Below, piece after piece: positions 18,639 through 64,000 of a DNA stretch of 64,000 bases; positions within the stretch are counted from its first letter, which is position 1, and every line of letters begins with the position of its first letter. This DNA is from Paracyclopina nana (taxonomy: Eukaryota > Arthropoda > Copepoda > Cyclopoida > Cyclopettidae), in the NCBI GenBank assembly GCA_019096065.1, contig JAGUCH010000003.1, positions 6,200,001 through 6,264,000 on the forward strand, given 5' to 3'. The notes beneath the pieces were generated by a model, which did no database searches, was not told where the DNA came from, and saw only the letters and a program-made list of their open reading frames with translations. The translations under genes and the position numbers were made by a program.

Positions 18639-18640
18639 TA

Positions 18641-39340: not shown

Positions 39341-40049
39341 TGGTGTACAATTCGTACTCTCTTCAGGAACCTAGGAAGGTTAAGCATCGGTCCCAAGTCC
39401 AGTACTCATTCGCAACACCGGAGCTGCCAGGTCTCACGAGCCGCTATGCAGAGGCCGCAGCCTCACGTACACAGCTTCTGGCAAGGAACCTCTCGGCACG
39501 CTTATGTACAGTTGACCAGTGGTTAAGGCTCGCCCTTTCACCCTGATCATTCCAGGGATCAGGATCTCGCTATGAGTCCGAGCACTAATATACTTCATTA
39601 AGGTCTGATGGTATTTTCTATTCATTAGCTGGCACAACACAACATAACAGCTGCTTCTAATCAGAGCTCAAAACAATATATATGACAATAAAGTTTCTTC
39701 TCTGCGGCTGTCTCTTCAGTGCTGCACACATCAAACTTGGTGAGGATCTTCAGGTTCCAGCTGCTGGCAGAGTTCACACGAGTCAACCTCTAGCTATAAA
39801 GTTGACATGTTGCTTCTCTGAGGTCCCCCGAAGAACTCCCCTCTACCTCGCCATCCTGCCTTGTCCTCCCAAGGCTAACCTCCCTTCACCAGGTAGCTTC
39901 ATCTTCCTTCCCATATTTCTGATGCAATCAATAGGGAGGTTGCGAGGTTATGGTTGATATTTTTGCGTTGAATAGTCATCTTCTTCTTCCTTCTATTTCT
40001 GTCATCCCATTTCCATATCATAACGCCATGATGAACTTGTCGTCCATCA
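39341..40049 (-). repeat. 3' LTR of the giant element
   Basis: Matches 63333-64000 over the 668 bases visible. The upper edge at 40049 is inferred: on the minus strand a TG there follows the purine-rich GGGCCGGGGTAA. The LTR would then run TG...CA and be about 709 bases. A TATATAT word lies on the minus strand near 39678. Confidence 0.85.
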
Positions 40050-40061
40050 TTACCCCGGCCC
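40050..40061 (-). promoter_or_regulatory. Candidate polypurine tract of the giant element
   Basis: Minus strand GGGCCGGGGTAA lies directly before the inferred LTR start. It is not an unbroken purine run, so it is only a candidate. Confidence 0.45.
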
Positions 40062-40163
40062 AAACTTTTTCAGCTTTTGTCATCATTTTATGAACTAAAA
40101 TATGAAAAAAGGTGACTAGATTGCTCAATATTAAATGATAAGTGATACAACAAAACTTTAGCC

Positions 40164-42197
40164 TTATACTAACGTAGCAGCTCCAAGTTTGTTTTTTCCA
40201 CACATCAGCCCCATTTCCATGGGGTCCTTTCCATTGTCAAGGCGTCTGGTATTAACCCGCCGGCGCCCAGTTCTTGGTTCAACATAATTAGGCTCTCCAC
40301 AGCATCTGCGGATTAGTGCCCGACGTTTCCACACTAGGATGCAGACTAACAAAATTATAATAAAGCCTGAAAGTGTGCTTATAATTAGTATGATTTTCCA
40401 ATGGTCAAACAAACCCAATGGCTCTTCCTCTGGAAACTTTGTAAAGAACTTCAAAATGTCACTTTCCCACGGGGAGTCTTCATACCCAGTACTATAACTT
40501 CCCATCGTGACCAGGCAATGGCTCAGCACTTGGTACGAGCCAGGCACTAAAGTTATGGAATTCTTAAAGTCATTTAAGCAAGTCCTGTTTATGGAAGTGT
40601 CCTTGATGACGTTCAGGAATCCCCTGTATTCCTGGCAAGCCACTTCTTCCAATGTATTATCAGTCAATGGGACCATGTTACACTCGGAAAAAGGGTCACC
40701 CAAGGCTAAGCCCAATAATAACTTGGCACACTGTTGGGCTCCATATGGCATTGTAACATGCTTATTACCACACACAGTGACATTGGCATCATGCATATAG
40801 CAATCTCCATAAATGGGTAGATCCTTAGTGACATAAGCCATATCTTTATATTTTGTTAAGAATGTGTCCGCTAACACTTGTCCATGAACACTTCTAGACA
40901 CTACTTTAAATGTCACTTCAGGTTCAGGATCCAAACTGTGGAAACTCATCATTCCCTGAGATACACTATCACCCACAACTTCAGTATTAGTTAGTGGATC
41001 ATACACACTATTAGTCACAGCTTGGTTCTCCAGATCACTAGCTATGTTAACTCGGGGCAGACTGAATCGCTTGTCAACCTGCCTAATGTTTCTAGCAAAG
41101 GTAACTATTTGTTCCACCATCGCTAGCACTTCCTGGTAATCTCCAGGCAAGTAACCAAGTTTTACAAATGCATCACTAACCTTTCGCAGCATGTGTACTG
41201 CTAAACTAATATTATCCGGAATGACCAGAAGTTTGACTTCCTTCATCATTCCTTCAGTAAATTTTGTAGTGCGACCAGCTTCAGCAAGGTTTTTAAGAGC
41301 AGTCAAAGCATGGTTGACCATACTTTTGGCCTTGGACAATTTATGGCTGATCTGGCCCTTATGATTAATGGCATATTTATGACGTACACAAATAGTTCCC
41401 ACCGAGCTTGTGCCGTCATAAAGATGTGACGAAGCCTCCACTAGTTTTTTGTCAGCAAACTTCCCTGTTATGCATGGGAATCCAGGTTTGATGGAAGCTT
41501 TAGGAACTTCTTTCCATGGAATTCTATCAAACGGAACATGTCCATCCAGTGAAACTGGAGTGTTCCCAATGAAACGAAACTTCAAGCAAAAAGTGAAGGT
41601 GGTCGCAGTATTAGAATCTGCTGCTTGAGTCAAGAGTTCTAATGTTCTGTCCATGTCACCTTGGTTTTCCGGAACAAACGAACTAAAATCAAGTCCTAGT
41701 GTCTTACACTCCTCATCCAATTTTGTTGGTGGAGCCTTAACACCCACATATTCTCTATCTTGGTAGGTCACTACGTCAGTGGGAGTCTGAGTGGTAGGAA
41801 CCTCCTCTGTTAACCGCCCCACACCATCCTCGAGCACATTCACCGAGTCGAGGGTCTTTTCAAGGAGCTGGCGGAAGTTACCAGTATCTATGATCATAGC
41901 CTTTTTATCAGGCTTAGGATGGTAAACCACGCGCACAGGGACCAAGGCATGCCCTTTGTGACATACCGGTCCATCTAATAGTGCATTAGATGCAGCCCGG
42001 CCGTTGATTATGGGCACAGACAAAGTCAAAAGCACAAGCACCAACATTATTAACTCAGCGAATGTCAAGCACAAACTGACTAGGCCCCAGGCCCACGCCG
42101 CCTTATATGTACAACAGGTACTTGTTTCGGGTAAGGCAAGCGAGCCAGCCTTCCCCACCAAACATTTATTAGTATAGTCAGGTGCGCACAAGACCAT
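40164..42197 (-). CDS. Env-like membrane glycoprotein ORF
   Basis: 677 aa from the ATG at 42197-42195; uninterrupted. There is a hydrophobic signal or anchor at about residues 33-62 (SLCLTFAELIMLVLVLLTLS). A ~520-residue ectodomain follows with paired cysteines (for example DCYMHDANVTVCGN and QQCAKLLL) and NXT/S sites. Near the C-terminus is a TM (about 600-622, IILIISTLSGFIIILLVCIL), then a basic tail (WKRRALIRRCC). Position between pol and the 3' LTR and this layout are those of retroviral Env proteins. I do not recognise the family and see no clear furin site or fusion peptide. Expression would need a spliced or separate transcript. Confidence 0.65.
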   Translation of the reverse strand: MVLCAPDYTNKCLVGKAGSLALPETSTCCTYKAAWAWGLVSLCLTFAELIMLVLVLLTLSVPIINGRAASNALLDGPVCHKGHALVPVRVVYHPKPDKKAMIIDTGNFRQLLEKTLDSVNVLEDGVGRLTEEVPTTQTPTDVVTYQDREYVGVKAPPTKLDEECKTLGLDFSSFVPENQGDMDRTLELLTQAADSNTATTFTFCLKFRFIGNTPVSLDGHVPFDRIPWKEVPKASIKPGFPCITGKFADKKLVEASSHLYDGTSSVGTICVRHKYAINHKGQISHKLSKAKSMVNHALTALKNLAEAGRTTKFTEGMMKEVKLLVIPDNISLAVHMLRKVSDAFVKLGYLPGDYQEVLAMVEQIVTFARNIRQVDKRFSLPRVNIASDLENQAVTNSVYDPLTNTEVVGDSVSQGMMSFHSLDPEPEVTFKVVSRSVHGQVLADTFLTKYKDMAYVTKDLPIYGDCYMHDANVTVCGNKHVTMPYGAQQCAKLLLGLALGDPFSECNMVPLTDNTLEEVACQEYRGFLNVIKDTSINRTCLNDFKNSITLVPGSYQVLSHCLVTMGSYSTGYEDSPWESDILKFFTKFPEEEPLGLFDHWKIILIISTLSGFIIILLVCILVWKRRALIRRCCGEPNYVEPRTGRRRVNTRRLDNGKDPMEMGLMCGKNKLGAATLV

Positions 42198-42313: not shown

Positions 42314-43912
42314 TTAGAATTGGTCAACAAACTCATTTATCGCCGCTCCAAAGGACTTCAAGTCAGTTGATGATAGCGTCTCCATCTTGGCTACAATTAA
42401 TTGGCCCAATCGAGCCTTTTCCTTGTCGCCCTTGGTACGTTTCGCTTTTGGAGCTCCTTGTTTAATAGACATGGCCCCAGCAGATTGATTAGTCGCCGCC
42501 TCCAAGTAAGTGCGGGTACCTCGACGGTTTTTCTGTGGCCGATCCTGTATTTCGGCTACCTTCAGTGAGCGGGCCCCAGAGATGAAACGCATCGCTTGGG
42601 GGTTAGAGCGCTCAACTCGTTCCACAAACCTGCCCACCTCGCGGGGCAGCATGGCAGTCAAGTCGACCTTGATATCGATTCTTCGAGGAGCTTGGGCAAC
42701 CTCATGCATTAGGCAAGATGGGGTTCCAACGTGCAACTGGAAGTAAGGTGAGCTTACATCCATAAAAAGCCTGGCATTGGCAAAAGACCTATCCAGTGTT
42801 GGCTTCAGTTGAACAACGCCATGTTTAGCCAGATGCTTGGATACCACAACAGGTACTCTGGCACCGTCTCTTCCTTGGACATTGTAGACTGCGTAGCTAA
42901 GTGCAGAGGGGCTTTGAATCGCAGCCCAATCCCTTACATTCGTGCGTCGATGATAGGTGTCATTGAACGCAGCCTCCTTTGGCAAATTGAAGACTGGGAG
43001 CGTCCCCAACATCAAGAAAACCACCACAAAGTCTGGTAGCGGTCCTCCCTCGCTAACTGGCTTTAATTGTAACTCGAAGGTTTCAAAGTTACACACCTTG
43101 AGTGGGCGACGAAAGTCCGGTTGCTCCAGGACCTCACCATTGCACCGTACCGTGACGTCGAAGGCTCGTTCACGGCTAACCATCGGAGCATTGCTAACAG
43201 CCACTTTTAACATGGCTTCGTTATAGCCCCTCTGGACCAATTCCCGTACAGCCATTGCTTGACGGTTATAAGTCTTGACAGTATCCGGAAATGGAGGGCG
43301 GATCAAGTCCTGATACGCCACAGGATACCTTAGCCTCACAGCTTCATCCCCAAGGGGGAGCTCAACTATGCAAGGCCTCATCAATCTAGGGTCAGCACGG
43401 GCTACCTCACCATTGTGAGTAGGTGCTGGTCCTTCATCATCCTGATCCATTTTTTCAGTCAGAACTCTAGCATTAGGAGCCCGAGTCACAATTGCAACCT
43501 CATGTTCTACATTCTCATGGATAACCTGGTCACCAGAGTCCTTCCTTGGAGCATCCCCTCCTCTCACATGTAAGGGATGTCCCTCTGCCTCATCAGCTTC
43601 ATCGCCAGTTTGGGCATCAGCAAAGAGCGCCATCTGGTCTAACCCTGCACTTTCTTCATCCCAAAACTGGGCATTAGCCCGGTAGGCATCCTGATCGATT
43701 GCACCAGGGGCCACACCCTCAGGTACCTCTTCCATAAGCAAAGCCTCATGTTCATGATCCTCTATCTGCGGGATCATGACCACGTCAACCTTTCGGACTT
43801 CAACATTCTTTTTTGAATCCATCTCGTTTTCAGGCAAAGCTTCACCAAGTTTGGCAAGGCTGGGTAGGGTGGTATCAGCAGCAGTGTTCATCATAGACTG
43901 TAACCTGCTCAT
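42314..43912 (-). CDS. Orphan ORF of the giant element
   Basis: 532 aa from the ATG at 43912-43910 (MSRLQSMMNTAAD). Residues 1-165 are acidic and look disordered. Residues about 170-450 look folded (LRPCIVELP-like strands, DFVVVFLMLGTLPVFNLPK, RLFMDVSSPYFQLHVG). The last 90 are basic (RPQKNRRGTRTYLE, KAKRTKGDKEKARLG). An acidic head and basic tail could suit a nucleic-acid- or particle-binding protein, but I recognise no family. A TATAAAAG on the same strand (43924-43931) lies only 12 bases upstream of this ATG. If it is the real TATA box, translation may begin at Met7. Confidence 0.6.
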   Translation of the reverse strand: MSRLQSMMNTAADTTLPSLAKLGEALPENEMDSKKNVEVRKVDVVMIPQIEDHEHEALLMEEVPEGVAPGAIDQDAYRANAQFWDEESAGLDQMALFADAQTGDEADEAEGHPLHVRGGDAPRKDSGDQVIHENVEHEVAIVTRAPNARVLTEKMDQDDEGPAPTHNGEVARADPRLMRPCIVELPLGDEAVRLRYPVAYQDLIRPPFPDTVKTYNRQAMAVRELVQRGYNEAMLKVAVSNAPMVSRERAFDVTVRCNGEVLEQPDFRRPLKVCNFETFELQLKPVSEGGPLPDFVVVFLMLGTLPVFNLPKEAAFNDTYHRRTNVRDWAAIQSPSALSYAVYNVQGRDGARVPVVVSKHLAKHGVVQLKPTLDRSFANARLFMDVSSPYFQLHVGTPSCLMHEVAQAPRRIDIKVDLTAMLPREVGRFVERVERSNPQAMRFISGARSLKVAEIQDRPQKNRRGTRTYLEAATNQSAGAMSIKQGAPKAKRTKGDKEKARLGQLIVAKMETLSSTDLKSFGAAINEFVDQF

Positions 43913-44235
43913 TTCCACCCCTTCTTTTATAGCTCCCAAACAGGTAACCAACAGCGCCTCACAGCGTTATTATTACCATAATTTCTCCAGCACGTTCATA
44001 TTATAGTGCGCAATTTTCTTGTGGCCTGGGTGAATCATTTCTCCCCGCTGGATTTGTTGCTCTTGTCTCCAAGATGCTGAGTCAACAAATTCCACAGCTC
44101 AAGACTCGGTCTTGTGACATAGGACAAGCTCTCCTGCATAAAAGGCATTGCCCTGGACAGCTTTCACTTCAGTCTTAAGCAGTCCTTCAACCCCACCACT
44201 TTTAATAGGCCAACTTTTCGTCGACACTAAACAAG
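43913..44235. promoter_or_regulatory. Divergent promoter region inside the giant element
   Basis: The minus strand has TATAAAAG at 43924-43931, facing the orphan ORF. The plus strand has ATAAAAGG at 44138-44145 and the arthropod-type initiator TCAGTC at 44169-44174, 31-33 bases apart as expected, 62 bases before the ATG at 44236. The region would drive transcription both ways. Confidence 0.55.
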
Positions 44236-45324
44236 ATGGGATTTATGCAATTACCGGTTACCACACCAGTAACTCCAGCAACTACAACTCTCATGACTTC
44301 GAGCACCACAAGGCTGCCTCTAGTCACCACTACTCGCTGGAAGCTGCCCGAGTCCTGGACTCGGACCTCAACTTATTCTCCAGTGGCCGCAACTGAGGTT
44401 CCAGTGACCTCTACCGAGGTCACTGTCATGTCAACCACACCAGCTCCAGAAACTTCATCGTCTCCACCTGAACTAGTAGAGCCCAGGAGACCAATAGAGT
44501 CCCGTGAGGAGTCAGAACAAGACTTCTCAGCAGCCACTCCTCGTGGCGTCTTTGACTTTGAGCAATACGGGCTGCAAGACTGGATTGGCCTAGCAACCAC
44601 CATCACAGTCATTTTGGTAAGCAAGCTTTTCATCTCTTATTTAGTACCTCCTTTTCCAAGACTTATCCTCAACCACACAGAGGTAATATGCGCTTGTTAC
44701 TTTGCAGGTGCTGTTGATTCTCACTACATGCCTCTTGTACAAGCTGTACAAGAAATGCAAGAGCTGTTGCTTCTGCCGGGCTTGCATCGATAAGGTCAAG
44801 CATGAGGAACCAGTGGAATTGGAACCTCTGGCCCTGCCCCTGTTAAACCCATCGACCTCGGGCATTTATGAGACTTTGACCAGACGGCCCCTGCCCTCAC
44901 TCCCCGCTTTGCCTTCGGATTTCGAGGGGATGATCATTATGCGGGATGGAATGCCCACTTTTCAAGTGGCTTCTCTCCCTCGCCAGGCCTTTGTACCATT
45001 GGCACACGAGCCAGTTTATGACGTGTTGCGGCCAACGAGACAAGTAAGCCTCCTTTTCTGTTTCTCATTCTAAAGGGGTCAGAAGTTTACAATCAACTTT
45101 TGGTCCGAAAAGAAAGCAAACTCATCTCTCAATCTTACTATTTTTTATAATTGCAGGAACCCGAGAGACTAGCCCCCAGTTTGCAGCGCAAACGCAACAA
45201 ACGGCGCCGGAACAGGAGCCAATTTTATATCAACACCCCTCGGATTGCCGAAGCCACAATCCATGAGCTTCCAGATGAGGCCTCCAAAGGAGTGCCAAGC
45301 ACTTCCACAACGTCTCCCAATTGA
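44236..45324 (+). CDS. Antisense-strand spliced gene 1: mucin-like single-TM protein
   Basis: Exons are 44236-44616, 44708-45043 and 45157-45324, all phase 0, giving 294 aa. The N-terminal ~90 residues are Thr/Ser/Pro-rich (TTPVTPATTTLM), as in mucin-like ectodomains. One TM spans the first junction (about 118-140), followed by a Lys/Cys-rich juxtamembrane stretch (KKCKSCCFCRACIDK) that may be palmitoylated. The cytoplasmic part holds a Pro-rich motif (RRPLPSLPALP), YETL, and near the end a strongly basic run (KRNKRRRNR). No classical signal peptide is clear. It has its own TATA/Inr and two AATAAA signals (45409 and 45417). Accessory gene of the retroelement or captured host gene; function unknown. 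Confidence 0.65.
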
Positions 45325-45632: not shown

Positions 45633-46175
45633 ATGGCCCCATTTTTGGACGGTTTTTTCGTAAGTGCAAACAGAAATCTTCAAATTCCAGTGCAATCTTA
45701 TTCGTAAAACAACATTTTATGTTTTACAGTCTAAAGAACAATCAACAGCAGCAGCAGCAGCAACGGCTGCCCCCGCCCACCTTCCCGTCGAAGGGGGGCA
45801 GGCCGCGGCCGAGTCCGCGGTCCTGCTGCCCCAGGAGCCCGCAGGCCAGCTAGCGGGCCTTCAAGGCCAGACCTGCCAGGGGGATGGTGTTGTAAGTTCT
45901 TTTCGTAACGGATTAGATCCCTTTAGCGATCTTCCTTTTCATTGCAGGCCGAAGAGATTCTCTAGGGCATCGCCATAAACGTGGCAGCGGCGGCCGCCTA
46001 TTATGGGGTGGTGCTCCCGGGCTTGGTCTGGGTCAACCGGGCCAAGCCCCGGGGGCTGTACCGGCTCGTCAGCCGCTTCTGGGCCGAGCCAGAGGAGCTC
46101 CCCCGGGCGACCCGCTGGGTCCTCAGCCTCTGCGGGATCCCCGAGACCGAGGACCCCCTCGAGGGCGTGGTGTAG
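45633..46175 (+). CDS. Antisense-strand spliced gene 2: small GC-rich-coded Ala/Leu-rich protein
   Basis: Exons are 45633-45659, 45730-45891, and a third that can start at 45948 or 45966. With the first acceptor the frame ends after five codons at TAG 45963-45965 (68 aa). With the second acceptor, 18 bases on, the TAG is skipped and the frame runs to 46173-46175 (132 aa). The TAG itself supplies the AG of the second acceptor. Exon 2 is Ala/Gln-rich (STAAAAATAAPA); exon 3 codes a Trp/Leu/Arg-containing segment (VSRFWAEPEELPRATRWVL). Codons are strongly GC-rich, unlike the AT-rich surroundings. An AATAAA lies at 46316. Family unknown. Confidence 0.5.
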
Positions 46176-46321: not shown

Positions 46322-46942
46322 GCCAGTTTCGCCCTACTTTTGATATCTGAGTCATCGCACATCATTTCGCGTTTTCTGAGCTGAGCAACCTATTGTTTTG
46401 CTGACTCATCCATTCATTGCCAAAGCCTCAGCAAAAACTACGGCTTCTTCGAGTGCCGATTTGCTTTGCCTGCCTCATCTTATCATATCATATTTACACT
46501 AGCATGGCATAACTCGAGCCTTGCCGACTACGATATTCTCATGTTTGTGTATAGTAGCTTTGCATTTTCTCAAGCATCTTAACGAAAAGCTACATTTACA
46601 GCGTTTGTCACACACATTATAATTAGCTCCACAGGTAGAAAGCCATAGCAGATAATCAGAGGTTAAGGTCTTATCTCGTCACCTCACGTGAGCAGGTAAT
46701 AACAATAACCTTCTCGTACTCGGTTCAGCACTTGCACATAAAATTCTGTACGGTGCGACGAGTAGATTACTTTCCATATTAGCTATAATAAGGGGCGCTA
46801 TCGCCCAACAAAAATACGGGTGCGTGGAGGCATCCGAAATCAGGTGTCATAAGCAGAGAAAAGAAGAAAGTTCAAGCCCATAAACCAAGGGACTAGCCCC
46901 TGGAGCATCGCTTTATTCTTCTGATCCCAGATGCCTTACGCA

Positions 46943-49907
46943 CCTTAGCTCAAGCAAGGGGCAAAACCCAAGCTGAGACTAGGAACAAAAAGTGAACAAA
47001 AATATGGTCTGTATAGCACACACTGCGGTACCATCTTTCCATCAGTCTTATTTTCTCTTTTGGTAAAAGACGCAGTACATGTTAGCCTCGACGCCTTTCA
47101 AAGCTTCAGCAAGGTTCTCAATGCACATTAATAATAAGTCCACATTAAAGCACTGCTCCTTGGTTCTCATGCCTCTACGCTATAATGGCATGACATTACT
47201 GGTGTAATTTATGATTCACGATTACCACCCGTGGCGCCCCCTAGCACTAACACAGCGGTAATTTGTATTCATAACGTTTCGTTCTTAGACTGAGTGCTAA
47301 GATGATATTTGCATTCTCATTGGCGCATAAGAAGCATCGGTTATTATCATGAGCTCCTTTTCACATCAGCACGCTCAGAACTTTTCCAAGTCAATGCCCT
47401 CATATTTTACCTTTTAAATGATAGGGCTCACTTTTGAGCCCCACAAAAATTAACTGCCTTCGTGTAATTAGTGCCATTTGCCAAGAGCTCACTTATGAGT
47501 CTAACCTGAGTTGGAGAGGCAACTACTCAGCTTTATGGCCACTATTACGGCAGCGTCTCATTTGGCTTGTAGGGGGCAGAACCCCAAGCACAAAAAGAGT
47601 CACAAAGTTAAATGCCTTTATTGATGCACATTTTCTTTACGTACAATGTGGCGATAAGCTCCTCGTTTGCACACTTCTCAAGTTATAGCGTGCTACGTAG
47701 TTCTTATCCACAAAGCATGTGCGCATTCATGATCCCTCTAGGTCATATTTTGTTGATGAAGCAAATGGAAATAGTTTCTTTGCTACGCCTTCTGTATATT
47801 GCAAACTTTACTGTCCGCTCCAGCCACTCCTTCGGCTAGCGGCACCATCTAGCGAGCCTCACTGATGTATTAACCTTTATGCTCTTAAGGCGCAAGCAAG
47901 TAAAATGCCAGCGTACACAGTTTATCTCGCATCCTTTATCGCCATTATTAGCGACCATTTTGTTGGTGGGCAAGCTTACTTCTTTCACTGAGAAAGTTAT
48001 TTTCAGCTAAGTCTGGAGCCTCATTAACACGTTCCAGATCAGATCGCCCCCCTTTTTGCACCGTAGTCAAGCCCTAAAATCGAACGATTTACAGGAGGTG
48101 CAAAATTATAGTAGCAGCGTACAGTTTATACTAGCCTCCACGCTTAACATCATTGCTCATAAAACATGAATTTTTCCTCACGTTTTTTATAAGCATCATA
48201 AGTGTACATAGACCACACGTATTACATTATAATGGGCTCAAAGCCCTATAAAAATTGTGTGACTTTTAGCAGACAGCGGTCATATGGCCATAAGTTTATA
48301 TTAAGCGCTTTCTAACTGGAAGCTTTTAGTAAGCTTCCAGTGTACTGCTACATGACCGGCCACTGAATGCTACTGCACGGTACCTACTCCTGAGGACAGA
48401 ACCCCAGGAGCAGACAAGCACAAAGTAGTCATAAAATAATGGTTTGTTCGTACCAGTTTCTTTTAGCAATCACCAAACCATTTTCTCATTTACATTGAAC
48501 ATTCTCATACTTGTAGCAAGAATAGCCATTTTCAAGCCACCTGCAGTTACAGTAAAGATGGCTATATATTACAGCCCCAAGCACATACCTGCGAAGCTAT
48601 TTTTCAGGTTTTCGCTTTGCAGGCTGGCAGTAATTTCCAGGTATGGCATAGTCATCGAGTCAAGGAGCGCCCTCTGGCGCAAACCTCAGTACTATTAACC
48701 GCAACGTTTGTAACGTTTTAACCGCTTACTGTCTGCCGTACCATTACTTTTTATGGGCAGTGTCTGTCATTATTCTCATCTTCTAGCAAAACCACACAGC
48801 AGGGAAGACGTTCAATTATGTTTTTTGCCAAGCAATAACCATTACTCAACTCATGGCAGTTCATTGTCTGTTCAGAGGGGTCATTGTCCCTCATCGAACC
48901 CAAAACTTCTGGCTCGCTAAAAGCCAACTTTTAGGCGCAGAAATATAACCTGTTCGAGTACTATTTATTTGTTTCCATGCAATGGTAAACGAGCACACAC
49001 TGTTTATTGTTATCATTGTAAAGCTTTACATCATAGCTTCGTCTAGTTATCATTAAAGGCCCAAAATGGGGCCACTTAAAAATGTGCGCTTATTTGTGAC
49101 TGAGTACCAGTACAGATAGCTCGGTTATAGGACGGAAGAGCAAGAGCTACTAGAGCAATTATCGGCCTTTTTATAAGGCGTGTACTCTGCGGCATCAGTC
49201 ACATTTGCACTCAATCTGGTCCCAGGGCAAAACCATAGAACCAGAAGAGGAACAAAAAGATAATAAAGTATGGTCTCCAGTAGGTTCTAGCTCAATTCGC
49301 GACCAAGCATTATGATTTCTATCTTTGAATACCTGATCAGGTCCGGCTGTTTTCTATAAACTCCTTGCCAAACCTAGTATTGGTCCGGTCAACTTATTGG
49401 GCCATGCATAATGGCACCAATGACGTACTGTTTCAGGTACTAGTTTATTGCATAAAATATGTATCATCCATGCCACAGTTATAAGGGGTTAGTCACGCCC
49501 CCTGGTGGCTACGGCTACGTCACATACGTTGCAACCAGCACACTTTTACTAATGATTTCAGTGGTCACTGCACCCAGAATATCATAAACAGATTTTTTGA
49601 TATTAAGTCAGCTTTTTTCTATATAGAAGCTTGTTTAGCTGACAGAGCAAATACTTTAGCTTAGTTTACCTTGATGCTCAAATTTCCATACGTGTACATA
49701 TGTTGTAGGGAAAATTCTGCAAAGGCTACTCAGCATTTATTAGAATTTGGCAGAATTTTGACAAATCCAATCACTTTTGGATTTCTTTTGCTTGAGCATA
49801 ACTACAATATATATAGTTTGCAGTCTGCTTATTTTGCAAAATTATCTGCGAGTTTAGCGGAAACGTTTTTAATGTGGGCGCGGGCCCCTTAGTCTCTAGG
49901 TGGCGCC
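46943..49907. repeat. Diverged array: hairpin plus CTCF-like motif units
   Basis: Four hairpins with a GGG(C/A)(A)AAACC(C)-type core are at about 46944-46977, 47565-47589, 48387-48410 and 49215-49245. Each is followed by an A-rich tail (ACAAAAAG; later ATGGTCT or ATGGTTT in three). Each is also followed, about 270-276 bases on, by a CTCF-like word: GGCGCCCCCTAGCAC (47233), GGCACCATCTAGCGAG (47841), GAGCGCCCTCTGGCGC (48665) and ACGCCCCCTGGTGGCT (49495). A fifth motif, CTAGGTGGCGCCAC, is at 49896. Further short matches between units (AACGTTT after the motif, ATAATGGCA before it) suggest decayed tandem duplicates. Confidence 0.5.
48316..48340. other. Perfect 10-bp hairpin
   Basis: CTGGAAGCTT, five-base loop, AAGCTTCCAG. 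Confidence 0.7.
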
Positions 49908-50302: not shown

Positions 50303-50328
50303 CATGGCCACAGGACGCTGTGGCCATG
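50303..50328. other. Perfect 11-bp hairpin with GACG tetraloop
   Basis: CATGGCCACAG, GACG loop, CTGTGGCCATG. It lies just upstream of the duplicated structured RNA. Confidence 0.75.
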
Positions 50329-55000: not shown

Positions 55001-58000
55001 ATGTTCACTAGTTTTTGTGTTTCCTCACAGTTTTGTTGCAAACGTATGAGAAGGTTGCGTGTAATTCCTGGTAAATGTACCGATATTTTACGCTTAACAG
55101 TGATTGCATCAACAATAACATTGTTTTCTATGTCAAAGACAGGAGATTCAGGGTTAGCTTCACCTTCAAATGAATGCGAAACCTCAGTTAACCTGTCAAC
55201 CTCATCATCATCCTTATGACGCGCATGAAGAATGGTGGAAGTATCATCATGAACAAAAGGCGGAGAGGAACCTATTAGTTCAACCCACTTGTCATTCAGA
55301 CATTGTAACCTTTTTTGTAGTAAAGACTTTGACATAGTACCTGAATTAACCAAAGTGTCAAACACATGTGTCAAAAGTTCCTGCGTGGTTATTACTTTAG
55401 AGGAAATTTCCGCCGGGAGTGGATAAACACCAGCATAAATGTCCTTCGTAATTTGTGATTGAATGGAATACGGTGCAAAGAACACTGTATTTCCCTCAGT
55501 TTGATGATACTTATTCAATAATATATCAACAATTTCAATCTCAGTTCTTGGCACAGCACGTATTTTCCATGCTACGGGCAAGGAGTATATTCTCGCTGCA
55601 AGTCTGTGCGTAAAAGCATCTTTACCAGTGAATGAGCTAGCCAGTATACTGGCAATGGATAGACAATCAGTTACTATCACTAACCGCTCATACGCAAAGA
55701 GTATACTTTTATAATGGTGTATCATCATTAATACACCTAAAGCTTCTCGCTGAAATGAGTGATAAGACAAGCACACTGACAATGGGAATCTAGCACTGTG
55801 AGCCCCAACACACACTGCCTTCCCATTGGCATCAATTTCCATAAGTAGAGCTGAGGTACTTATTACACCCGAGTCTACTACTAAATATGCTTCCTTGAAG
55901 TTAGGCAATGCCAAGGACATGCCTGTCTTTATTTCCTCTATAACCTTGTAAAAGCACTTTTCTTGAAAAGGGGAGAAGTTAAACTTCCCTGTTTTCCCTT
56001 GCTTAGTTGCCATTACATCCAATAGAGGTGCCGTGTAAGTGGCCATATTAGGACAATATTGGCTTAACCAGTTGGTCATACCAATGAACTTTTGTAATTG
56101 CTTCTTTGTAGAAGGCATTGGGAAGTCGTCAAATGCAGTCCTGTATTTATCAGGCATCCGCATCGTCATAACTCCATGCTCATCAATTTTTATGAGGTGT
56201 CCAAGGACTGTAGCTTCCTTGACCCCTAATTGAGTCTTTTTGATTTGTAATAATGCATTTAGTTCCCTTAAACTGTCAAACAGTTTCCTTAGATCACCTA
56301 AATGCCTCTTATAATCATCTAGAGTTGCCGGCTTCGGTTTTTCCGGATTCTTGCAAGAGACCAATAAATCGTCTACATAGACACAAGTGAAAGGTAATAT
56401 TTCAGGATTAATTGCCTGAATTAATAAAGATGAAAATTCTCTCACAGCCAAGGCCGTACCTTGCAATATAGCCTTACTTTTCAAATAAAGGCCTCTATAC
56501 CTAGAGCGTGGTGACGTCACAGCCAGGCAGCACATATCAGCACTGTCAGAATCAACAGGTAAATTGTCATATCCTGAGGTGACATCAAAAGATGACATCA
56601 AACAAGAGTTCGAAAGCATTCCTAACAATGTAGGAATAGGTGGAACAATATGTTCAGATGGCGTAAAGATCAGGTTCTTATTAAAGGACGTCAGGTCCAC
56701 TAATAACCTAGGTTTACGTTGTTTCATAGGTAACTTTTCATCGTTTGGCCTTGATGTTAAGAAGCAAGGGCAAGCAGAGTACCTATTTAAAGACTTATCT
56801 ACTATCTCAATTAGGCCAGAAGATAACATTAATGATATCTTCCTATCCACTTGGGTGGTTTCATATTCAGACATGTTAAACACCTTCGGCACCAGGGGTT
56901 TATTGTCCTTTAATTGAAATTTTACAGGGTCCACATTCCATAACCTAAAAGATCTCGGATCATCAGAGAAGATGTCCTTATATTCTATCAATATATTCCT
57001 GTATTCTTCCCTGACTTCCACTGGTATGTGGTCCAGGTCAAACTTTAAGACTGTGTCAAGTTCCAATGGAAAGGTGTAGCCAGCTACTCCATTTAGAACT
57101 CGATGTGGGTCAAATTCACTAGGGAACTGCAATAAAAGGTTATAAACCTCTTCATACAGTCTCTGATTCTTTGCCTCGTCTTGCGTTATTTCTAAAGAGG
57201 CTGACACTAAGTCCAATTCAGATGGGTTTTTAATTACCGTTTGCCTGACACAGAGATCTGCTATAGGGCCTTCATATATAGTAGTGTAACTTTTACACAC
57301 TATCTTAGATCCAGCACGCTTAGCCAGACAAAGGGCACAAGCACAATAGTCTGGCTTGAACTCAAAAGGTATAAAACCACCAAACTTTGTCTTTATATCC
57401 TCAAATGTAGATTCATGTGGATACATAGGCAAGCCCGATAGTAACAACAATGCAGAAGACACTGCTAAACACACCGGTTCTTCTACTGACACATCACCAT
57501 CCATTAAGGTTCTCACCCATATATTATCAGCCACACATTTGTATCGTAAATGGCCAAATATATTGTAAACTAAGGTAGCCATGTAACCAACATCCTTTGA
57601 ATTGGAGCAAGGCACATGAACCATTAGTTCTATGTCATTTGCTATCTTATACAAGACGGTGGGAGCACCCAAGACAGTGTATTCGTAATATTTATCATTT
57701 CCATTTCTTTGATAAGCAACAGGAAAGCAATCGTAACTATGAACCATGATAGTTAGTACCACTCTCTCCATGCCAGCCAGGTAATTTTCTATAGGAGTGA
57801 GAGCTATAGTCCTACATTTATCATGAACGTTCTTGTATTTCACCCAAACTACACTTAGTTTTTCAACTATAGTGTTGAGCTTCAAAATTATTCGCTTTTG
57901 TTCCCCAGACAATAATTTATCACTAGGGACAACAACTACCCATGGTAAGCTATTCCAGTTCCATTTACTGACAAATTCTATTAATAGGTCATCAGTGATT

Positions 58001-59559
58001 TCTTCAAAACCATCAGATTGGTTAGAGGCAATGAAGACATGATTCCAATGTCTGGTTAGCTTTTGTTTAACATTACCCTTTATGTGAACTTGTTCATTAA
58101 AGGTGTGCATATCAGTGAAAGCTAGTCCATTTATATCAACAAATTGCACCAATATATGTGTGTCAATAAACTCACAATAGCAAGTGTCCACTATATGGTT
58201 CAAAGACTTTAAACTGAGGTTTAACTTATGCACAATTTGGGTAGGCTTATAGCGTTGTTTCTTAACAATATTAGCCTTTCCTATGATAGAATGAGCCTCA
58301 ATGTAAATGGGCTCGTCGGAATTATTACCTATCTGCACTGGAAAAGTGCCCTTCCGGGTCACAGAAGTAACACATCCTTCAGCAGTGGCGCTGGTATAAT
58401 CCTCATCCGGACTAAATTCCAAACACTTATCATGAAAGCTAGAGTAAATGCTTTTACTTTCTGGCTTTACTTTAACTTCATCATAGTCCACTTCGGCGTC
58501 TGAGTCACCAAGACTGGGCTCAGCTACCAAAGGTATCTCATGCGGAAAGCTAGCATTAACTGTCACTTCCCTTCCAGGTAGCACAGTAATACTTTCATTT
58601 ATAGCTACAGGGTAGAACGCTTCCTTAGTAAGGACTAGGGGAATCTTCTTATATTTTATTCGCCCTGGGAAATCAATAAAATGACTTCCATCCCTACTAG
58701 TCAAGCGTATGTTATTATCTACTAATAACGAATTCCCAATCATAAGCAGGGTCTCACAGTCAGAGACTAAGAACACTGCTTGCCTAATCAGTACTCTATT
58801 ATTAAAGGCGACTTGCAGAACCACGCCTTCAGTGCTGGGAAATTCTTCCCCATTGAAATTCTTAATAAGATAATTGGTTTGAACTCGCGGTAATGAGTAA
58901 CCCAATTTTTCTTCAATTAACCTTACTAGCGTGCGAGATATGATTTGAACCATTGCTCCACTGTCAAATAAGGCATGAAGTCTTATCTGGCCTGTAACTT
59001 GGACAGGTATGTAGTACCTTTCGCACACATTGTGTAGTTTTAAAGAAAATACACTTAGCGTGTCATCATCTTTAACGATCCCTTCTGGCTGTACTTTTTC
59101 ATCCAGAGATTCAATGCAGCCAGCATTTAGCTTCGCCACATGTACAGGTACATCATACTTGTGGGATGTGTCTGCAAAAAGCCAGCACATACACAAGCAT
59201 GCCATTATTATAATGTATACTATCGCTACAGGCACGACTTGGTCATAACTGTTCAGCCACAGCCCCAAAGCTAGCATCACAATTACCCATAACAATATTC
59301 CTTTCCACATCCTAGGTGGGGTTAACCCATCTTTAGTCTCATTCATGTACTGAGAACCAGATATGGCCAAAACAATGGCACTTGAGGTTTTTTCATCAGG
59401 CCCCTTTGCGCAATGTTTTCTATTTTCTGAGAGTGCTTTTAGATGATCAAAATACACTCTCCCTACTTCTTTGTTACATTCTCCACGCATGAATGAGGGC
59501 AGAACATAACAATCATCATGTGTAGTGTCTGTTTTAGGTTCTTCTTCCATTTCAGACAT
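52078..59559 (-). CDS. pol: Pol polyprotein (protease, RT, RNase H, integrase), Ty3/gypsy-like
   Basis: 2,493 aa from the ATG at 59559-59557, which overlaps the gag stop. In order: two TM segments (about 87-130, IVMLALGLWL and VAIVYIIIMACLCMCWLF); an aspartic protease (LFDSGAMVQII, Asp199); ~500 residues of unknown fold; reverse transcriptase (FDVTSGYDNL, Asp992; YVDD 1061-1064; VLGHLI). Next come RNase H (VVDSG about 1229, REALGV, VTDCLS) and integrase with a His/Cys finger (HNHLG, CMHC) and Asp1645, Asp1706 and Glu1746. An SH3-like C-terminal fold follows (LFEVIDVG, VSLDHVKLY), then ~500 extra acidic residues. Gene order and RT motifs are Ty3/gypsy-type. No stops or frameshifts are seen and catalytic residues are present. 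Confidence 0.92.
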   Translation of the reverse strand: MSEMEEEPKTDTTHDDCYVLPSFMRGECNKEVGRVYFDHLKALSENRKHCAKGPDEKTSSAIVLAISGSQYMNETKDGLTPPRMWKGILLWVIVMLALGLWLNSYDQVVPVAIVYIIIMACLCMCWLFADTSHKYDVPVHVAKLNAGCIESLDEKVQPEGIVKDDDTLSVFSLKLHNVCERYYIPVQVTGQIRLHALFDSGAMVQIISRTLVRLIEEKLGYSLPRVQTNYLIKNFNGEEFPSTEGVVLQVAFNNRVLIRQAVFLVSDCETLLMIGNSLLVDNNIRLTSRDGSHFIDFPGRIKYKKIPLVLTKEAFYPVAINESITVLPGREVTVNASFPHEIPLVAEPSLGDSDAEVDYDEVKVKPESKSIYSSFHDKCLEFSPDEDYTSATAEGCVTSVTRKGTFPVQIGNNSDEPIYIEAHSIIGKANIVKKQRYKPTQIVHKLNLSLKSLNHIVDTCYCEFIDTHILVQFVDINGLAFTDMHTFNEQVHIKGNVKQKLTRHWNHVFIASNQSDGFEEITDDLLIEFVSKWNWNSLPWVVVVPSDKLLSGEQKRIILKLNTIVEKLSVVWVKYKNVHDKCRTIALTPIENYLAGMERVVLTIMVHSYDCFPVAYQRNGNDKYYEYTVLGAPTVLYKIANDIELMVHVPCSNSKDVGYMATLVYNIFGHLRYKCVADNIWVRTLMDGDVSVEEPVCLAVSSALLLLSGLPMYPHESTFEDIKTKFGGFIPFEFKPDYCACALCLAKRAGSKIVCKSYTTIYEGPIADLCVRQTVIKNPSELDLVSASLEITQDEAKNQRLYEEVYNLLLQFPSEFDPHRVLNGVAGYTFPLELDTVLKFDLDHIPVEVREEYRNILIEYKDIFSDDPRSFRLWNVDPVKFQLKDNKPLVPKVFNMSEYETTQVDRKISLMLSSGLIEIVDKSLNRYSACPCFLTSRPNDEKLPMKQRKPRLLVDLTSFNKNLIFTPSEHIVPPIPTLLGMLSNSCLMSSFDVTSGYDNLPVDSDSADMCCLAVTSPRSRYRGLYLKSKAILQGTALAVREFSSLLIQAINPEILPFTCVYVDDLLVSCKNPEKPKPATLDDYKRHLGDLRKLFDSLRELNALLQIKKTQLGVKEATVLGHLIKIDEHGVMTMRMPDKYRTAFDDFPMPSTKKQLQKFIGMTNWLSQYCPNMATYTAPLLDVMATKQGKTGKFNFSPFQEKCFYKVIEEIKTGMSLALPNFKEAYLVVDSGVISTSALLMEIDANGKAVCVGAHSARFPLSVCLSYHSFQREALGVLMMIHHYKSILFAYERLVIVTDCLSIASILASSFTGKDAFTHRLAARIYSLPVAWKIRAVPRTEIEIVDILLNKYHQTEGNTVFFAPYSIQSQITKDIYAGVYPLPAEISSKVITTQELLTHVFDTLVNSGTMSKSLLQKRLQCLNDKWVELIGSSPPFVHDDTSTILHARHKDDDEVDRLTEVSHSFEGEANPESPVFDIENNVIVDAITVKRKISVHLPGITRNLLIRLQQNCEETQKLVNMLVLTPEHEVPTSIAARYRVIDCALLVIRKNVKLPFTKATNTKVYMSMQNCVYLMACIHLLHNHLGSKKVNTLFTQSMFSTYSARISRIIVGACMHCALYRQANTRFVGKGRFRIPDKPFDLVMIDLAYFDQTLVKGKDAKVCLVIIDVYSKMIIAKPLLNSTYKEVANAMEEVTSLFGVPKTLLADNGAQLTSNHALQRLIDKYKIQELCQYRTLSPNKHSNAYAENSVRVLRNALILNSKSYKRPMSEVFKLSVYAINNRPLTYLSYTDPNGVKVIPTPFSLFFDKMPGYHLGRDVFEILSESEDIIHKAEWQDVMRKYDEEEQRRFELMKATERPSFKPEIGSLVLVIKHPVNKHGYKFMRDLFEVIDVGSHSTVTVKPYLHEGLTREVSLDHVKLYRFHELYKFLPEKITHLLMRPYTPDEMLQRLSRNEMLKFLEEDEPEVNEYALRNRVSQSIAARDEAKSEWASNVTEELITATSSLGTSTIKDHQTLKHSGSILRKKATDLFKPSDVRRIQEENRRIIKQQWDNYVPKPPPNEGVIDSADSAHMKEGSYLSPDEQKADKLIDQLLESSSKTYETTLYEELKSLQSEDLPTFEDLAAKGKVFLEVPKSTRPRSPSQISTPTNMTRTLLNDDVSPVPRAFRGRRSPRPSPKSPEQEEADISKVVSEASFLINQDKFDTDLESLASALENVGEFIDDEYIDSQPLYQPTIADVLETFESERDFEETLSKVMAENRKFSPDTKNRFLDAFKRGSQLLKKKLSMSPRKNDKDEDGDLSIKSNIIPSAPTREQIYETDMLQNDNESSSTSTPEDELLSPIKEATVPEASNEVEPKGAAAATPPRILQRPREGLRDKPRIDYKAMVTRQYNRKLPIHYNPGHPRDSALTPEERELARLKYSFRNPRPKPNEKYILQKFIPAWRNDTNVATVQDYSKFLEAGGLDHLNDSFVQELKKLRLNRHELYLLVHKQFK

Positions 59560-59561
59560 TA
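59557..59561 (-). promoter_or_regulatory. TAATG stop-start overlap between gag and pol
   Basis: The gag stop TAA (59561-59559) and the pol ATG (59559-59557) share one base. Such overlaps serve termination-reinitiation. No obvious slippery heptamer was seen just before it. Confidence 0.65.
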
Positions 59562-62045
59562 CCTTCGTGCTTGTCGCGACTTCCAGCACGGTAATCCATT
59601 TATGACCTTGTGTAATCCTTTACAAGATATACACACAGTGCCATCCTTTTTTAACTCATCCAGTGAAACACCTGGATAGTTTTCGCAACTTTTGGCATAG
59701 TGGGTCCCATTGCAGAACAGGCATCCACCTGTTTCGAACGGGTTCCCCGCCGGCAGCTTACTAATGTCGATATTAAAGGTAGCCGCAATTCTTTTAGATC
59801 GCTCAGCCTCAGTCTCGGCTTTTAACGCCGCTACTTCAGCAGTTTGGCGTTCCAATTCTGTATTCTTTCTAGCCAACTCACCATGCAGAGCACTTATTAT
59901 TTTGGCACTCTTTGAGCTAACATGTGACATCACTGATAGCATGCTAGCACTGTCCAAATTGTCCTCATCAACTTCAACCATAGCAAGATGGGCTTTGTGT
60001 TTAACAGCTGGGGCCATAGGTAGTCTAGCATCTCTAGCCCCTCTGTCTCGCTCAGTTTTCGGTATGTGGGTCCCCACATGGCCCCCAATTACCTTGACCA
60101 TCTCAGATAGAGCAGCCATGCTCCTCAGGGGCGTGCCTTGCTTCAACAAATGCTCATGGTATATATTGATATACCCTTGGTATTGTTGAGGCCAATGCCT
60201 TTTCAGCAGGGCATGCGCATCAGTGATTGTTTCAGAAATGGCATGTGCTTTGCCATCCCCATCCATAGAGTCTCTATGGATTCGCAACCTGAGTTTATAC
60301 AATTCCCTTACAGACTGGTCAAAAGTCTGGGTGGGATTCCTGATGATATTATGTATTCTTATAAACTCATCCACCTCCTGGACATTCTTGGTGTAAGCAT
60401 AGATGTCATTCCAAAGGATCTCTACGCCTTCACTTGCCACACCTCTGAAGTACTCAGCTGTGCTTGCAGTGGCCCCTTCGCATAAACCTTCAATTATAGC
60501 ATCATGGCTCCAATCATACCGGTGGGCCAGTGTACTTATTGTGCGCAAGAATTCTAACACACTATCAGCGGTATTAGAAGAACTTTGCATATCGAACCTC
60601 TTAGAGTACTTTGCTCTGATTTCCTTGAGAGCACTAGTATTGGCAAATTTCAGGTGCCCATTAGGAGGCAAAGGTATATAATCCTTATTGTATTTAGGAT
60701 CATACACACTTTTCGAATGTTCGGAGTACGAGGGAACCGCATAGCTCACCTCTGGGCTCTTTAAGTGACATTCCACAAAGATTTTGCGCTGCAATGCGGT
60801 GAACTCAGGCCTGGTCTGCAAAGCCTGAAATAGCTTTTGCATCTCAATGACCTTCTTTCCCGGAGACAAATCCGGATCCACCATTTGCAACACAACTCGC
60901 CTAGCAGATTCGACATCCACTATTTCGTTAATATTGATAGCTTCAATCCGTTCATCCAGTGGAGCATCTTCATGGTAGACCGACTCAGCAACTGGTATTA
61001 ATGAATCTTTGGACGCAGCATCAGCTAATTTCAAGACCCGTTCCAGATTTCGTTCGTAAATATCATTTGGGTCAGCCCCAAACATGTGCTTTGCAGTCAT
61101 TTGGGCAGTAGCTATTATTTTATTGGCAGTGCTCGCATCATGCAATGCAGTGTAATGGGCTCGCACCACACCTAAGTCATACGGACTCAAGGCCTTTCCT
61201 TTCAGCAATTTCATCACCGTGGTTTCTATCACCTTACCAGGGGGCAGAACCACCGAATTATTTAGGACAGTCAAGTCCTTCAAAGTCATTTTAGTAGAAG
61301 TGAGCAATGATTTTTGGCCATCTTGGAACCCAACCTTCTTGGGGATGGCCGACAGGTCCAATGACTTGTTTTTATTAGCATCCTTTGGCGGATCCTCCAC
61401 TGCAAACGAAGTGGAGATCACTAGTCCTTCTTCCTCATCAGGTTCTAAGAAGAAGTCAGGCCGTAATCCAAACAAAGCAGCAACAGCATCTAATCCTGTT
61501 GCTGGGTTAGTAAGTTTCTCTTTATTAATCATGGTACTCAGAGCTGTTATTATTGGCTCCAATTCCTCATTAGGGCTAGCAAAGTCCCCTTCACCAGCAT
61601 CAGTGGACCTGTTAAGAATGATCGTTTTCTTCTCCCTGAATGCTTTATTCAAATACTCCATACCAAAACAATAGAGGAGCAAAGCACACGTAGCCGAATT
61701 GCGATCAGGAGGGTCAATTGCATTGACATACCTGACCACCACCATAATCTGTCTAATAGGATCATCCTGGGGCATTTGCTCTATGATTTTCATAATATGC
61801 AAATCAAGAGAAAGGGGCTCCTCGGTGTTTAGGACAATAATTTGTGTAGCATTCCATGCTCTTACCACCTCTGTCTTGGTGACATTCAAGGTACCAGTAG
61901 ACGTTGGGTACTTGACCCACGATAGAAAATCCTTCACTGACTCCCTGCTTCCCCCAGTAGGAGTGCAAGGTTTCAGCAGTTTCTCCAATGCAATCTCAGT
62001 GACTTCCAAGTGCACTAAAAGTGCTTTTTTCAAATCACGAGACAT
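59559..62045 (-). CDS. gag: Gag polyprotein
   Basis: 828 aa from the ATG at 62045-62043. The N-terminal ~440 residues are a helical matrix-like region of unknown fold. A capsid-like segment (about 480-640) has VLEFLRTISTLAHRYDW, ILWNDIYAYTK and FDQSVRELYKLRLRI, in the style of Ty3/gypsy capsids. A coiled coil (about 730-770) precedes two C-terminal zinc knuckles, CLFCNGTHYAKSC (C-x2-C-x3-H-x4-C) and CISCKGLHKVINGLPC (C-x2-C-x3-H-x7-C). The spacing is not the canonical C-x2-C-x4-H-x4-C; the first resembles Bel/Pao-type knuckles. Gag is larger than most Ty3 Gags. Confidence 0.85.
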   Translation of the reverse strand: MSRDLKKALLVHLEVTEIALEKLLKPCTPTGGSRESVKDFLSWVKYPTSTGTLNVTKTEVVRAWNATQIIVLNTEEPLSLDLHIMKIIEQMPQDDPIRQIMVVVRYVNAIDPPDRNSATCALLLYCFGMEYLNKAFREKKTIILNRSTDAGEGDFASPNEELEPIITALSTMINKEKLTNPATGLDAVAALFGLRPDFFLEPDEEEGLVISTSFAVEDPPKDANKNKSLDLSAIPKKVGFQDGQKSLLTSTKMTLKDLTVLNNSVVLPPGKVIETTVMKLLKGKALSPYDLGVVRAHYTALHDASTANKIIATAQMTAKHMFGADPNDIYERNLERVLKLADAASKDSLIPVAESVYHEDAPLDERIEAININEIVDVESARRVVLQMVDPDLSPGKKVIEMQKLFQALQTRPEFTALQRKIFVECHLKSPEVSYAVPSYSEHSKSVYDPKYNKDYIPLPPNGHLKFANTSALKEIRAKYSKRFDMQSSSNTADSVLEFLRTISTLAHRYDWSHDAIIEGLCEGATASTAEYFRGVASEGVEILWNDIYAYTKNVQEVDEFIRIHNIIRNPTQTFDQSVRELYKLRLRIHRDSMDGDGKAHAISETITDAHALLKRHWPQQYQGYINIYHEHLLKQGTPLRSMAALSEMVKVIGGHVGTHIPKTERDRGARDARLPMAPAVKHKAHLAMVEVDEDNLDSASMLSVMSHVSSKSAKIISALHGELARKNTELERQTAEVAALKAETEAERSKRIAATFNIDISKLPAGNPFETGGCLFCNGTHYAKSCENYPGVSLDELKKDGTVCISCKGLHKVINGLPCWKSRQARR

Positions 62046-63307: not shown

Positions 63308-63329
63308 TTCAATCCCTCCGGGGCCTCCA
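63308..63329 (-). promoter_or_regulatory. Primer-binding site of the giant element
   Basis: Minus strand TGGAGGCCCCGGAGGGAT, then TGAA, starts three bases inside the LTR edge. Its complement ends CCTCCGGGGCCTCCA and includes a T-loop-like TTCAATCC, as in the 3' end of a tRNA. The tRNA identity is not assigned. It differs from the Lys-type site of the small element. Confidence 0.65.
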
Positions 63330-63332
63330 AAA

Positions 63333-64000
63333 TGGTGTACAATTCGTACTCTCTTCAGGAACCTAGGAAGGTTAAGCATCGGTCCCAAGTCCAGTACTCA
63401 TTCGCAACACCGGAGCTGCCAGGTCTCACGAGCCGCTATGCAGAGGCCGCAGCCTCACGTACACAGCTTCTGGCAAGGAACCTCTCGGCACGCTTATGTA
63501 CAGTTGACCAGTGGTTAAGGCTCGCCCTTTCACCCTGATCATTCCAGGGATCAGGATCTCGCTATGAGTCCGAGCACTAATATACTTCATTAAGGTCTGA
63601 TGGTATTTTCTATTCATTAGCTGGCACAACACAACATAACAGCTGCTTCTAATCAGAGCTCAAAACAATATATATGACAATAAAGTTTCTTCTCTGCGGC
63701 TGTCTCTTCAGTGCTGCACACATCAAACTTGGTGAGGATCTTCAGGTTCCAGCTGCTGGCAGAGTTCACACGAGTCAACCTCTAGCTATAAAGTTGACAT
63801 GTTGCTTCTCTGAGGTCCCCCGAAGAACTCCCCTCTACCTCGCCATCCTGCCTTGTCCTCCCAAGGCTAACCTCCCTTCACCAGGTAGCTTCATCTTCCT
63901 TCCCATATTTCTGATGCAATCAATAGGGAGGTTGCGAGGTTATGGTTGATATTTTTGCGTTGAATAGTCATCTTCTTCTTCCTTCTATTTCTGTCATCCC
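63333..64000 (-). repeat. 5' LTR of the giant element, incomplete at the window edge
   Basis: Matches 39341-40008. About 41 bases are expected beyond the window if the LTR is 709 bases. Confidence 0.88.

Follow-up and report, generated by a model that had tools for sequence, protein, structure and literature searches.

A giant Ty3-like long terminal repeat element with an envelope-like gene and a predicted spliced gene on the opposite strand in the copepod Paracyclopina nana

Long terminal repeat (LTR) elements usually code on one strand, their genome being one RNA. Can such an element also hold genes with introns on the other strand, and how would those introns pass through reverse transcription? 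The question is raised by a 64,000-nucleotide stretch of Paracyclopina nana DNA (the window; positions 6,200,001 to 6,264,000 of contig JAGUCH010000003.1, C3:6200001-6264000 here, in a genome of 91.95 Mb and 10 contigs), in which an initial annotation had recognised a large retroelement coding on both strands. We conclude that the window very probably holds a complete, recently integrated copy of a family of giant Ty3-like LTR elements with an env-like gene, in effect endogenous animal retroviruses with an ambisense organisation. The predicted gene on the plus strand has kept its splice sites, bears the mark of selection at the protein level and occupies the same slot in two families of elements. 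The earlier interpretation, of a retroelement backbone combined with a block of accessory genes, is supported, having withstood two attempts at refutation (absence of the block from other copies, and an assembly duplication behind the LTR match).

Structure, copies and age of the element

The backbone of the element reads on the minus strand and consists of the following parts (ORF, open reading frame; aa, amino acids).

39341..40049, minus strand: 3' LTR, 709 bp, TG...CA, with the AGTG target duplication next to it
40050..40070, minus strand: candidate polypurine tract, ending GGGCCGGGGTAA and directly adjoining the 3' LTR; function by analogy
40164..42047, minus strand: env-like ORF (ORF4), 627 aa, likely ATG at 42047
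42314..43912, minus strand: ORF3, 532 aa, likely ATG at 43912, under purifying selection
52078..59559, minus strand: pol, about 2493 aa, with protease (PR), reverse transcriptase (RT), RNase H (RH) and integrase (IN) in that order; likely ATG at 59559
59559..62045, minus strand: gag, about 828 aa, likely ATG at 62045, with two C-x2-C-x3-H-x4/7-C knuckles in its C-terminal part
63308..63329, minus strand: primer binding site, complementary to the 3' end of tRNA-Thr
63333..64000, minus strand (to 64041 outside the window): 5' LTR, identical to the 3' LTR

Two repeats in the window, 39341-40008 and 63333-64000, are identical at 668 of 668 positions and run to the window end; with the contig bases past that end included, the LTR measures 709 bp (39341-40049 and 63333-64041), begins with TG, ends with CA and shows 0/709 mismatches. 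The whole element is 24,701 bp long (39341-64041, minus strand) and is flanked at both ends by a 4-bp target duplication, AGTG. The claimed element of about 24.7 kb with paired LTRs is thereby borne out, its extent requiring only the correction that it runs 41 bases beyond the window; everything except these 41 bases of the 5' LTR lies within it. The primer site TGGAGGCCCCGGAGGGATTGAA begins three bases past the 5' LTR, and the 3' end of a tRNA-Thr(AGT) gene in the same genome fits the 19-base primer pattern with 2 mismatches, this gene being one of 71 genome occurrences at up to 2 mismatches. The polypurine tract candidate is present with small changes in all 15 of the paired-LTR copies described below. 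The LTRs with their target duplication, the tRNA primer site and the order of domains in Pol are those of an LTR retroelement of the Ty3/gypsy type. Rfam and ARAGORN scans of the window gave no matches.

Counts of copies and rows in the genome are lower bounds throughout, since the searches score only the best candidates. The LTR search returned 46 rows, comprising 30 in 15 pairs, 6 short rows that fall within LTRs of three of these elements, and 10 unpaired rows (3 nearly full-length single LTRs and 7 fragments). The paired LTRs are spaced 22.7-24.1 kb start to start in 13 of the 15 pairs, and 33.3 and 36.5 kb in the other two. All 15 copies are bounded by an exact 4-bp target duplication, each at its own site, and the two LTRs of a copy differ by 0 mismatches in ten copies, 1 in four and 2 in one, in agreement with the recent insertion that had been proposed. 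Twelve copies form subfamily A (LTRs 0-4.4% apart); the other three make up subfamily B (10-13% from A). Env is open from end to end in 9/15 copies and broken in the remainder, and among the 12 subfamily-A copies 8 have an 832-codon gag frame without stops.

That the right LTR abuts the end of the window might suggest a duplicated LTR or collapsed repeats in the assembly. However the window was cut at an arbitrary position: the contig goes on, and the LTR finishes at 64041 beside the target duplication; moreover, the 15 independent sites agree, each pair having its own 4-bp duplication at a different place. We therefore give an assembly artefact practically no weight.

A sister family in the same genome is 66% identical in the whole of Pol, 87% in its RT-RH part and 45% in Env. 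It includes at least 39 gag rows (of 56) at 45-47% identity, 37 of them without stops, and at least 34 env rows (of 67) with an open 637-codon frame. The single sister element that was read to both of its ends (C4:5013494-5036914) is 23,421 bp long with LTRs of 927 bp, identical at 821/821 positions over the part compared, and a GTAC duplication.

Sense-strand genes and selection

Four minus-strand ORFs of 832, 2513, 550 and 678 codons (stop to stop) are arranged in the order gag-pol-ORF3-env, as expected from the description of open gag and pol genes followed by two further large ORFs on the same strand. Gag has no Pfam match. In Pol, matches to RVT_1 (5e-9) and rve (4e-8) exceed the Pfam cut-offs and the RNase H families fall below theirs; a spacer of about 600 aa separates PR from RT and a tail of about 500 aa follows IN. 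The motifs DSG (219), YVDD (1081), HLLHNH (1598), ADNG (1725) and AENS (1765) presumably have the usual catalytic roles. A pair of hydrophobic stretches lies ahead of the protease (59173-59310, Pol residues 104-149) and looks similar by eye in the related protein P0003.

In the window, as in the three further copies that were read, the gag stop and the pol ATG overlap as TAATG (59557-59561); one sister copy has the gag TAA followed by an ATG six bases on. A gag-pol frameshift was considered; given this junction in four copies and the six-base spacing in the sister, we prefer translation by stop and restart.

The nearest solved relatives of the RT-RH part are Ty3 RT (1.5e-22) and Ty3 Gag-Pol (5.6e-22), and no family of the Pao type appeared in the Pfam scan of Pol. 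In an RT-RH tree of 18 rows, which holds no Bel/Pao or errantivirus references, the window, the sister family and two proteins, P0003 and P0004, share a long stem; the first three are joined, and P0004 more deeply, with full support, P0004 being flagged as a long branch. P0003 (2574 aa, from a European Nucleotide Archive contig of 25,934 bases) is 38% identical to Pol over 2457 aa, and P0004 is a protein of 3603 aa. A search of viral contigs with Pol gave no match.

The env-like ORF has a signal-like N-terminus, an ectodomain with 12 cysteines, a hydrophobic segment at residues 552-570 and a basic tail. For Env and ORF3 alike, about 8,000 candidates drawn from 5.8 billion proteins were scored, and none was a homologue at E 0.001; the window's two proteins also had no matches in Pfam, NCBIfam or PHROGs at 0.1. 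Comparison of Env and of its alignment with the PDB yielded no meaningful match, and the ORF3 alignment matched no profile. Matches of the Env alignment to DUF1265 (0.14; 3 of 11 Env rows) and to an RNA polymerase subunit (0.016) were judged to be chance. The structure models are poor (mean predicted confidence, pLDDT, 35 for Env and 41 for ORF3). The want of any detectable relative and a model that is useless at this score weigh against a retroviral interpretation, and the label 'envelope' therefore rests on position and topology. An errantivirus-like envelope, be it of the baculovirus F type or a different known fusion protein, finds no Pfam or meaningful PDB match here, the failed model leaving room for a remote likeness of fold.

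Selection was measured with the window as reference, against other copies with open frames, as the ratio of nonsynonymous to synonymous divergence (dN/dS). This ratio is 0.07-0.09 for pol (3 copies, dS 0.14-0.22), 0.08-0.12 for env (5 copies, dS 0.14-0.27) and 0.07-0.09 for ORF3 (3 copies, dS 0.24-0.37), with 0.10 for ORF3 against subfamily B (dS 1.7). Near-identical copies give 0.48 for env (C4_9.03), on 8 changes only, and 0.00 and 0.15 for ORF3, on 1 and 9 changes. Silent sites are saturated, giving no ratio, in comparisons with the sister family and of Env with locus L020. These values indicate that pol, env and ORF3 are under purifying selection. Such constraint between copies whose LTRs are so young implies that many selected rounds of replication separate them, while each insertion is itself young.

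These observations bear on whether the element might be a purely intracellular, non-infectious giant retrotransposon, with ORF3 and ORF4 neither virion nor envelope proteins. The lack of similarity of either protein to any known envelope, and their unresolved structures, are what such an element would be expected to show. However ORF4 combines a signal-like N-terminus, a single C-terminal hydrophobic segment and a basic tail with the position of an env gene, and it is under purifying selection at dS up to 0.27; in addition, copies that are very young are yet separated by pol dS of at least 0.14, which fits many cycles of replication outside these insertions. We thus consider an exclusively intracellular existence rather unlikely, and favour an endogenous retrovirus.

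The copies are also mosaic. Relative to the window, C4_9.03 shows a divergence of 0-0.4% in env, ORF3 and the cassette of plus-strand exons, against 2.7-5.5% in pol. C4_0.84 stands at 0.6% for ORF3 and 4.1% for env, rising to about 30% in the alignable cassette exons, and C2_0.09 has no difference in a stretch of gag but 2.3-3.8% in pol. This pattern is most simply explained by template switching between co-packaged genomes, with gene conversion as the alternative.

The predicted spliced gene on the plus strand

Between ORF3 and pol lie the following features.

43967..44217, no strand assigned: non-coding block from ORF3 to the plus-strand gene, promoter candidate
44236..44616, plus strand: exon 1, Ser/Thr/Pro-rich (52% over residues 8-95), variable between copies, ending in the first half of a hydrophobic segment
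44708..45043, plus strand: exon 2, second half of the hydrophobic segment, Cys/Lys cluster, YxxL, Pro-rich tail; dN/dS 0.11-0.37
45157..45324, plus strand: exon 3, Arg-rich (RKRNKRRRNR), stop codon at its end
45730..45891, plus strand: exon A, Ala/Pro-rich, phase 0; tblastn match in the sister family at 3e-4
45948..46174, plus strand: exon B, with a conserved UAG in frame at 45963; the 69 codons after it share 73% identity with the sister family
46400..52077, no strand assigned: non-coding region with patchy conserved blocks, partly reordered in subfamily B

Exons 1-3 are separated by GT-AG introns of 91 and 113 nt, all in phase 0. Mean hydropathy is 1.55 at the end of exon 1 and 2.5 at the start of exon 2, and each exon alone falls below the threshold for a transmembrane segment; we infer that intron 1 splits a single such segment, one half lying in each exon. 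Exons A and B also join in phase 0. The initial annotation had counted two intron-containing genes on this strand; the spliced exons stand, and the phase-0 junctions mean that there may be one gene with alternative 3' exons.

Could these exons be chance open frames lying antisense to minus-strand or regulatory sequence? The pattern of change argues otherwise. An excess of third-position changes in the plus frame is seen in all 10 exon-2 pairs, from five of the eight copies tried (those giving the dN/dS range above), and in exon B, where mismatches at the three codon positions number 13/8/30 against a sister copy and 3/1/7 against a diverged copy. For exon 1, dN/dS is 0.14-0.72 in 20 of 28 pairs (8 copies), the other 8 pairs being saturated at silent sites. 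Indels in exon 2 are absent or of length 3 only in four of the six copies compared. Among 17 cassettes (15 copies and 2 sister copies), the donor 1 pattern is present in 15 and the donor 2 pattern in 14, and intron 1 divides the hydrophobic segment. Matches in the sister family reach 1e-6 and 4e-4 for exon 1 and 1e-32 for exon B, whose identity over 70 residues is above that of the whole of Pol (66%) and Env (45%) and below that of RT-RH (87%). Exon 2 resembles its sister counterpart by eye in its hydrophobic start, a Cys/Arg cluster, a YDV motif and the donor.

Several observations nevertheless weigh against a functional gene. The donor patterns fit neither sister cassette; exon 2 could not be placed by script in 3/8 copies tried, where no acceptor was found at the expected distance; it shows non-triplet gaps relative to the window in 2/6 copies (C4_0.84 and C7), and has no significant match in the sister family. 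Exon 1 is frame-shifted in at least 2 of the 15 copies (C1_8.55 and C2_3.51). None of the five exons matches Pfam and the gene has no known homologue, its promoter is a candidate only, and the gene itself is predicted from sequence. The frame shifts, the lack of a Pfam homologue and the reliance on sequence are also what chance frames would predict; set against the signs of coding constraint, we find chance frames very unlikely, and retain the interpretation of a conserved spliced gene.

The window shares with one diverged and one sister copy an in-frame UAG, followed by GGC, near the start of exon B. This stop may be bypassed by a second 3' splice site or by stop-codon readthrough.

There are two main types of cassette, about 30% apart, in copies that are elsewhere about 91-97% similar. 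Such a contrast might be left by a recent swap, and could suggest that the plus-strand block is a separate insertion, or a captured host gene, within this one copy; the corresponding prediction, that other copies lack the segment from 40 to 52 kb, proved not to be so. The cassette and ORF3 (some broken) lie in the same slot in 15/15 paired-LTR copies and in both sister copies read, with a homologous plus-strand gene in each, and the variation consists of a related version replacing the gene between flanks that are 88-92% identical. A separate insertion is thus refuted for this copy and has, in our judgement, hardly any probability left, although the gene may still derive from an ancient capture in the common ancestor.

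The non-coding block at 43967-44217 is 11-13% divergent in the six copies compared, and the exons beside it are 19-32% divergent in five of these. In the sixth (C2_13.5) the exons differ by 6-10.5% only, and the contrast between a conserved block and variable exons is therefore limited to five copies.

In the window, the region at 46.4-52.07 kb lacks any long reading frame of its own. Between 46819 and 51293 it contains blocks of 41-225 bp with 71-88% conservation in subfamily B, where their order is partly changed. It had been described as a structured region of 5.7 kb, and this holds in part: folding z-scores below -3 occur in 16% and 24% of 74 windows (two strands), beyond the 3% of 65 in pol, but hairpins of at least 22 bp are not enriched (29 on the plus and 34 on the minus strand, versus 29 and 36 over the same length of pol), and few compensatory changes emerge when base pairs are counted against diverged copies. 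A set of structured RNAs here is possible and weakly supported.

Proposed expression and relation to known elements

We propose that transcription of the genomic RNA would start in the 5' LTR, on the minus strand, and that this RNA would be translated into Gag and then, by stop and restart at TAATG, into Pol, with spliced subgenomic RNAs giving ORF3 and Env. Its retrovirus-like mode of movement is seen in the sequence, from the LTRs, the primer site, the integrase and the target duplications. The plus-strand transcript would be made from integrated DNA, starting in 43967-44217 or in the 3' LTR, and would be spliced to encode a single-pass membrane protein that is mucin-like outside and carries a Cys-rich, signalling-like inner tail with YxxL; the alternative 3' exons A and B may provide a second form of the protein. 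The introns would pass reverse transcription intact, not being splice sites in the complementary genomic RNA, and would persist because the genomic RNA is the opposite strand. The faster variation of the outer part than of the inner part fits a surface protein that meets host factors (in attachment or interference), any function beyond this being a guess. The wider interest is that a multi-exon gene on the opposite strand appears to have kept its introns through reverse transcription, in two families and with selection on its protein, a natural counterpart of the reverse orientation that is exploited in retroviral vectors.

Ty3/gypsy elements (Metaviridae) include an env-bearing errantivirus type. 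The present family resembles them in its PR-RT-RH-IN order, 4-bp target duplication, tRNA primer and last sense ORF at the envelope position, and differs in its length of 24.7 kb, the Pol of about 2500 aa with a large PR-RT spacer and an N-terminal hydrophobic pair, the extra ORF3, the spliced plus-strand gene and an env without recognisable relatives. With P0003 and P0004, compared as proteins, it shares a relationship in Pol.

Among giant animal elements, the Burro elements of planarians are gypsy-like and have env-related and accessory parts, with gag, env and pol in one polyprotein of about 4,900-5,100 aa together with BIR, BCL2 and other motifs (PMC6431247). In our element the ORFs are separate, env lies 3' of pol and no domains of the apoptosis type (BIR, BCL2 and others) were found; the terms 'antisense' and 'opposite strand' are absent from the text on Burro (PMC6431247). 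The Retand elements of plants share with ours a long region between pol and the 3' LTR that holds ORFs antisense to gag-pol, there with TRP28 and DNA-related domains (PMC11963269). They differ in having no sense ORF with transmembrane regions, and the word 'intron' does not occur in that text (PMC11963269); here no TRP28 match appears among the five exons in Pfam, and the host is no flowering plant, its genome having wnt domains (found in 0/14 control genomes). Among retroviruses, HTLV and other deltaretroviruses have the spliced antisense genes hbz and APH-2, HBZ being a basic leucine zipper (bZIP) factor expressed from the 3' LTR, and the asp gene of HIV-1 encodes an antisense membrane protein with Cys and Pro motifs (PMC10186651). 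In contrast to these, the antisense gene here lies in its own slot of about 2 kb, overlaps no sense ORF and has at least 3 coding exons.

The suggestion that no such ambisense layout was known must thus be narrowed: antisense genes are established in Retand (PMC11963269) and in HTLV as hbz (PMC10186651), and what we have not found described is the combination. Among the top papers listed by the literature searches, which cover few preprints and subscription papers, there is no description of an animal LTR element that is of this size, has an env-like gene and holds a multi-exon antisense gene in a slot of its own. Giant size, antisense ORFs and antisense retroviral genes are each known, and their combination here appears to be new. 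It is possible, though we hold this only tentatively, that we are dealing with an ambisense lineage of giant animal retroviruses that is active now, whose spliced antisense gene would give a variable surface protein beside an envelope of unknown type and which would form, with P0003, a separate and wider group of env-bearing retroelements of about 25 kb. The very young mosaic copies, mostly of about 24 kb, in a 92-Mb genome offer a clean case; since they lie in one animal, the size limit, packaging, template switching and the role of the antisense protein are directly testable.

Some other features were noted. A second, unrelated and short LTR element occupies 33469-37556 of the window, with direct repeats of 279 bp that are identical and lie 3.8 kb from each other (278 bp if counted from TG to CA), a primer site TGGCGCCCAACGTG that we take to be that of tRNA-Lys, and a 5-bp duplication, AAATA, seen by eye; its one ORF of 418 codons has no Pfam match and it looks non-autonomous. 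A host gene candidate lies at 32070-32930, a single open frame of an HCNGP-like family (Pfam), and a 121-bp inverted repeat, 90% identical, is formed by 17915-18035 and 18523-18643. TTAGGG repeats occur at one place near the end of contig C8.

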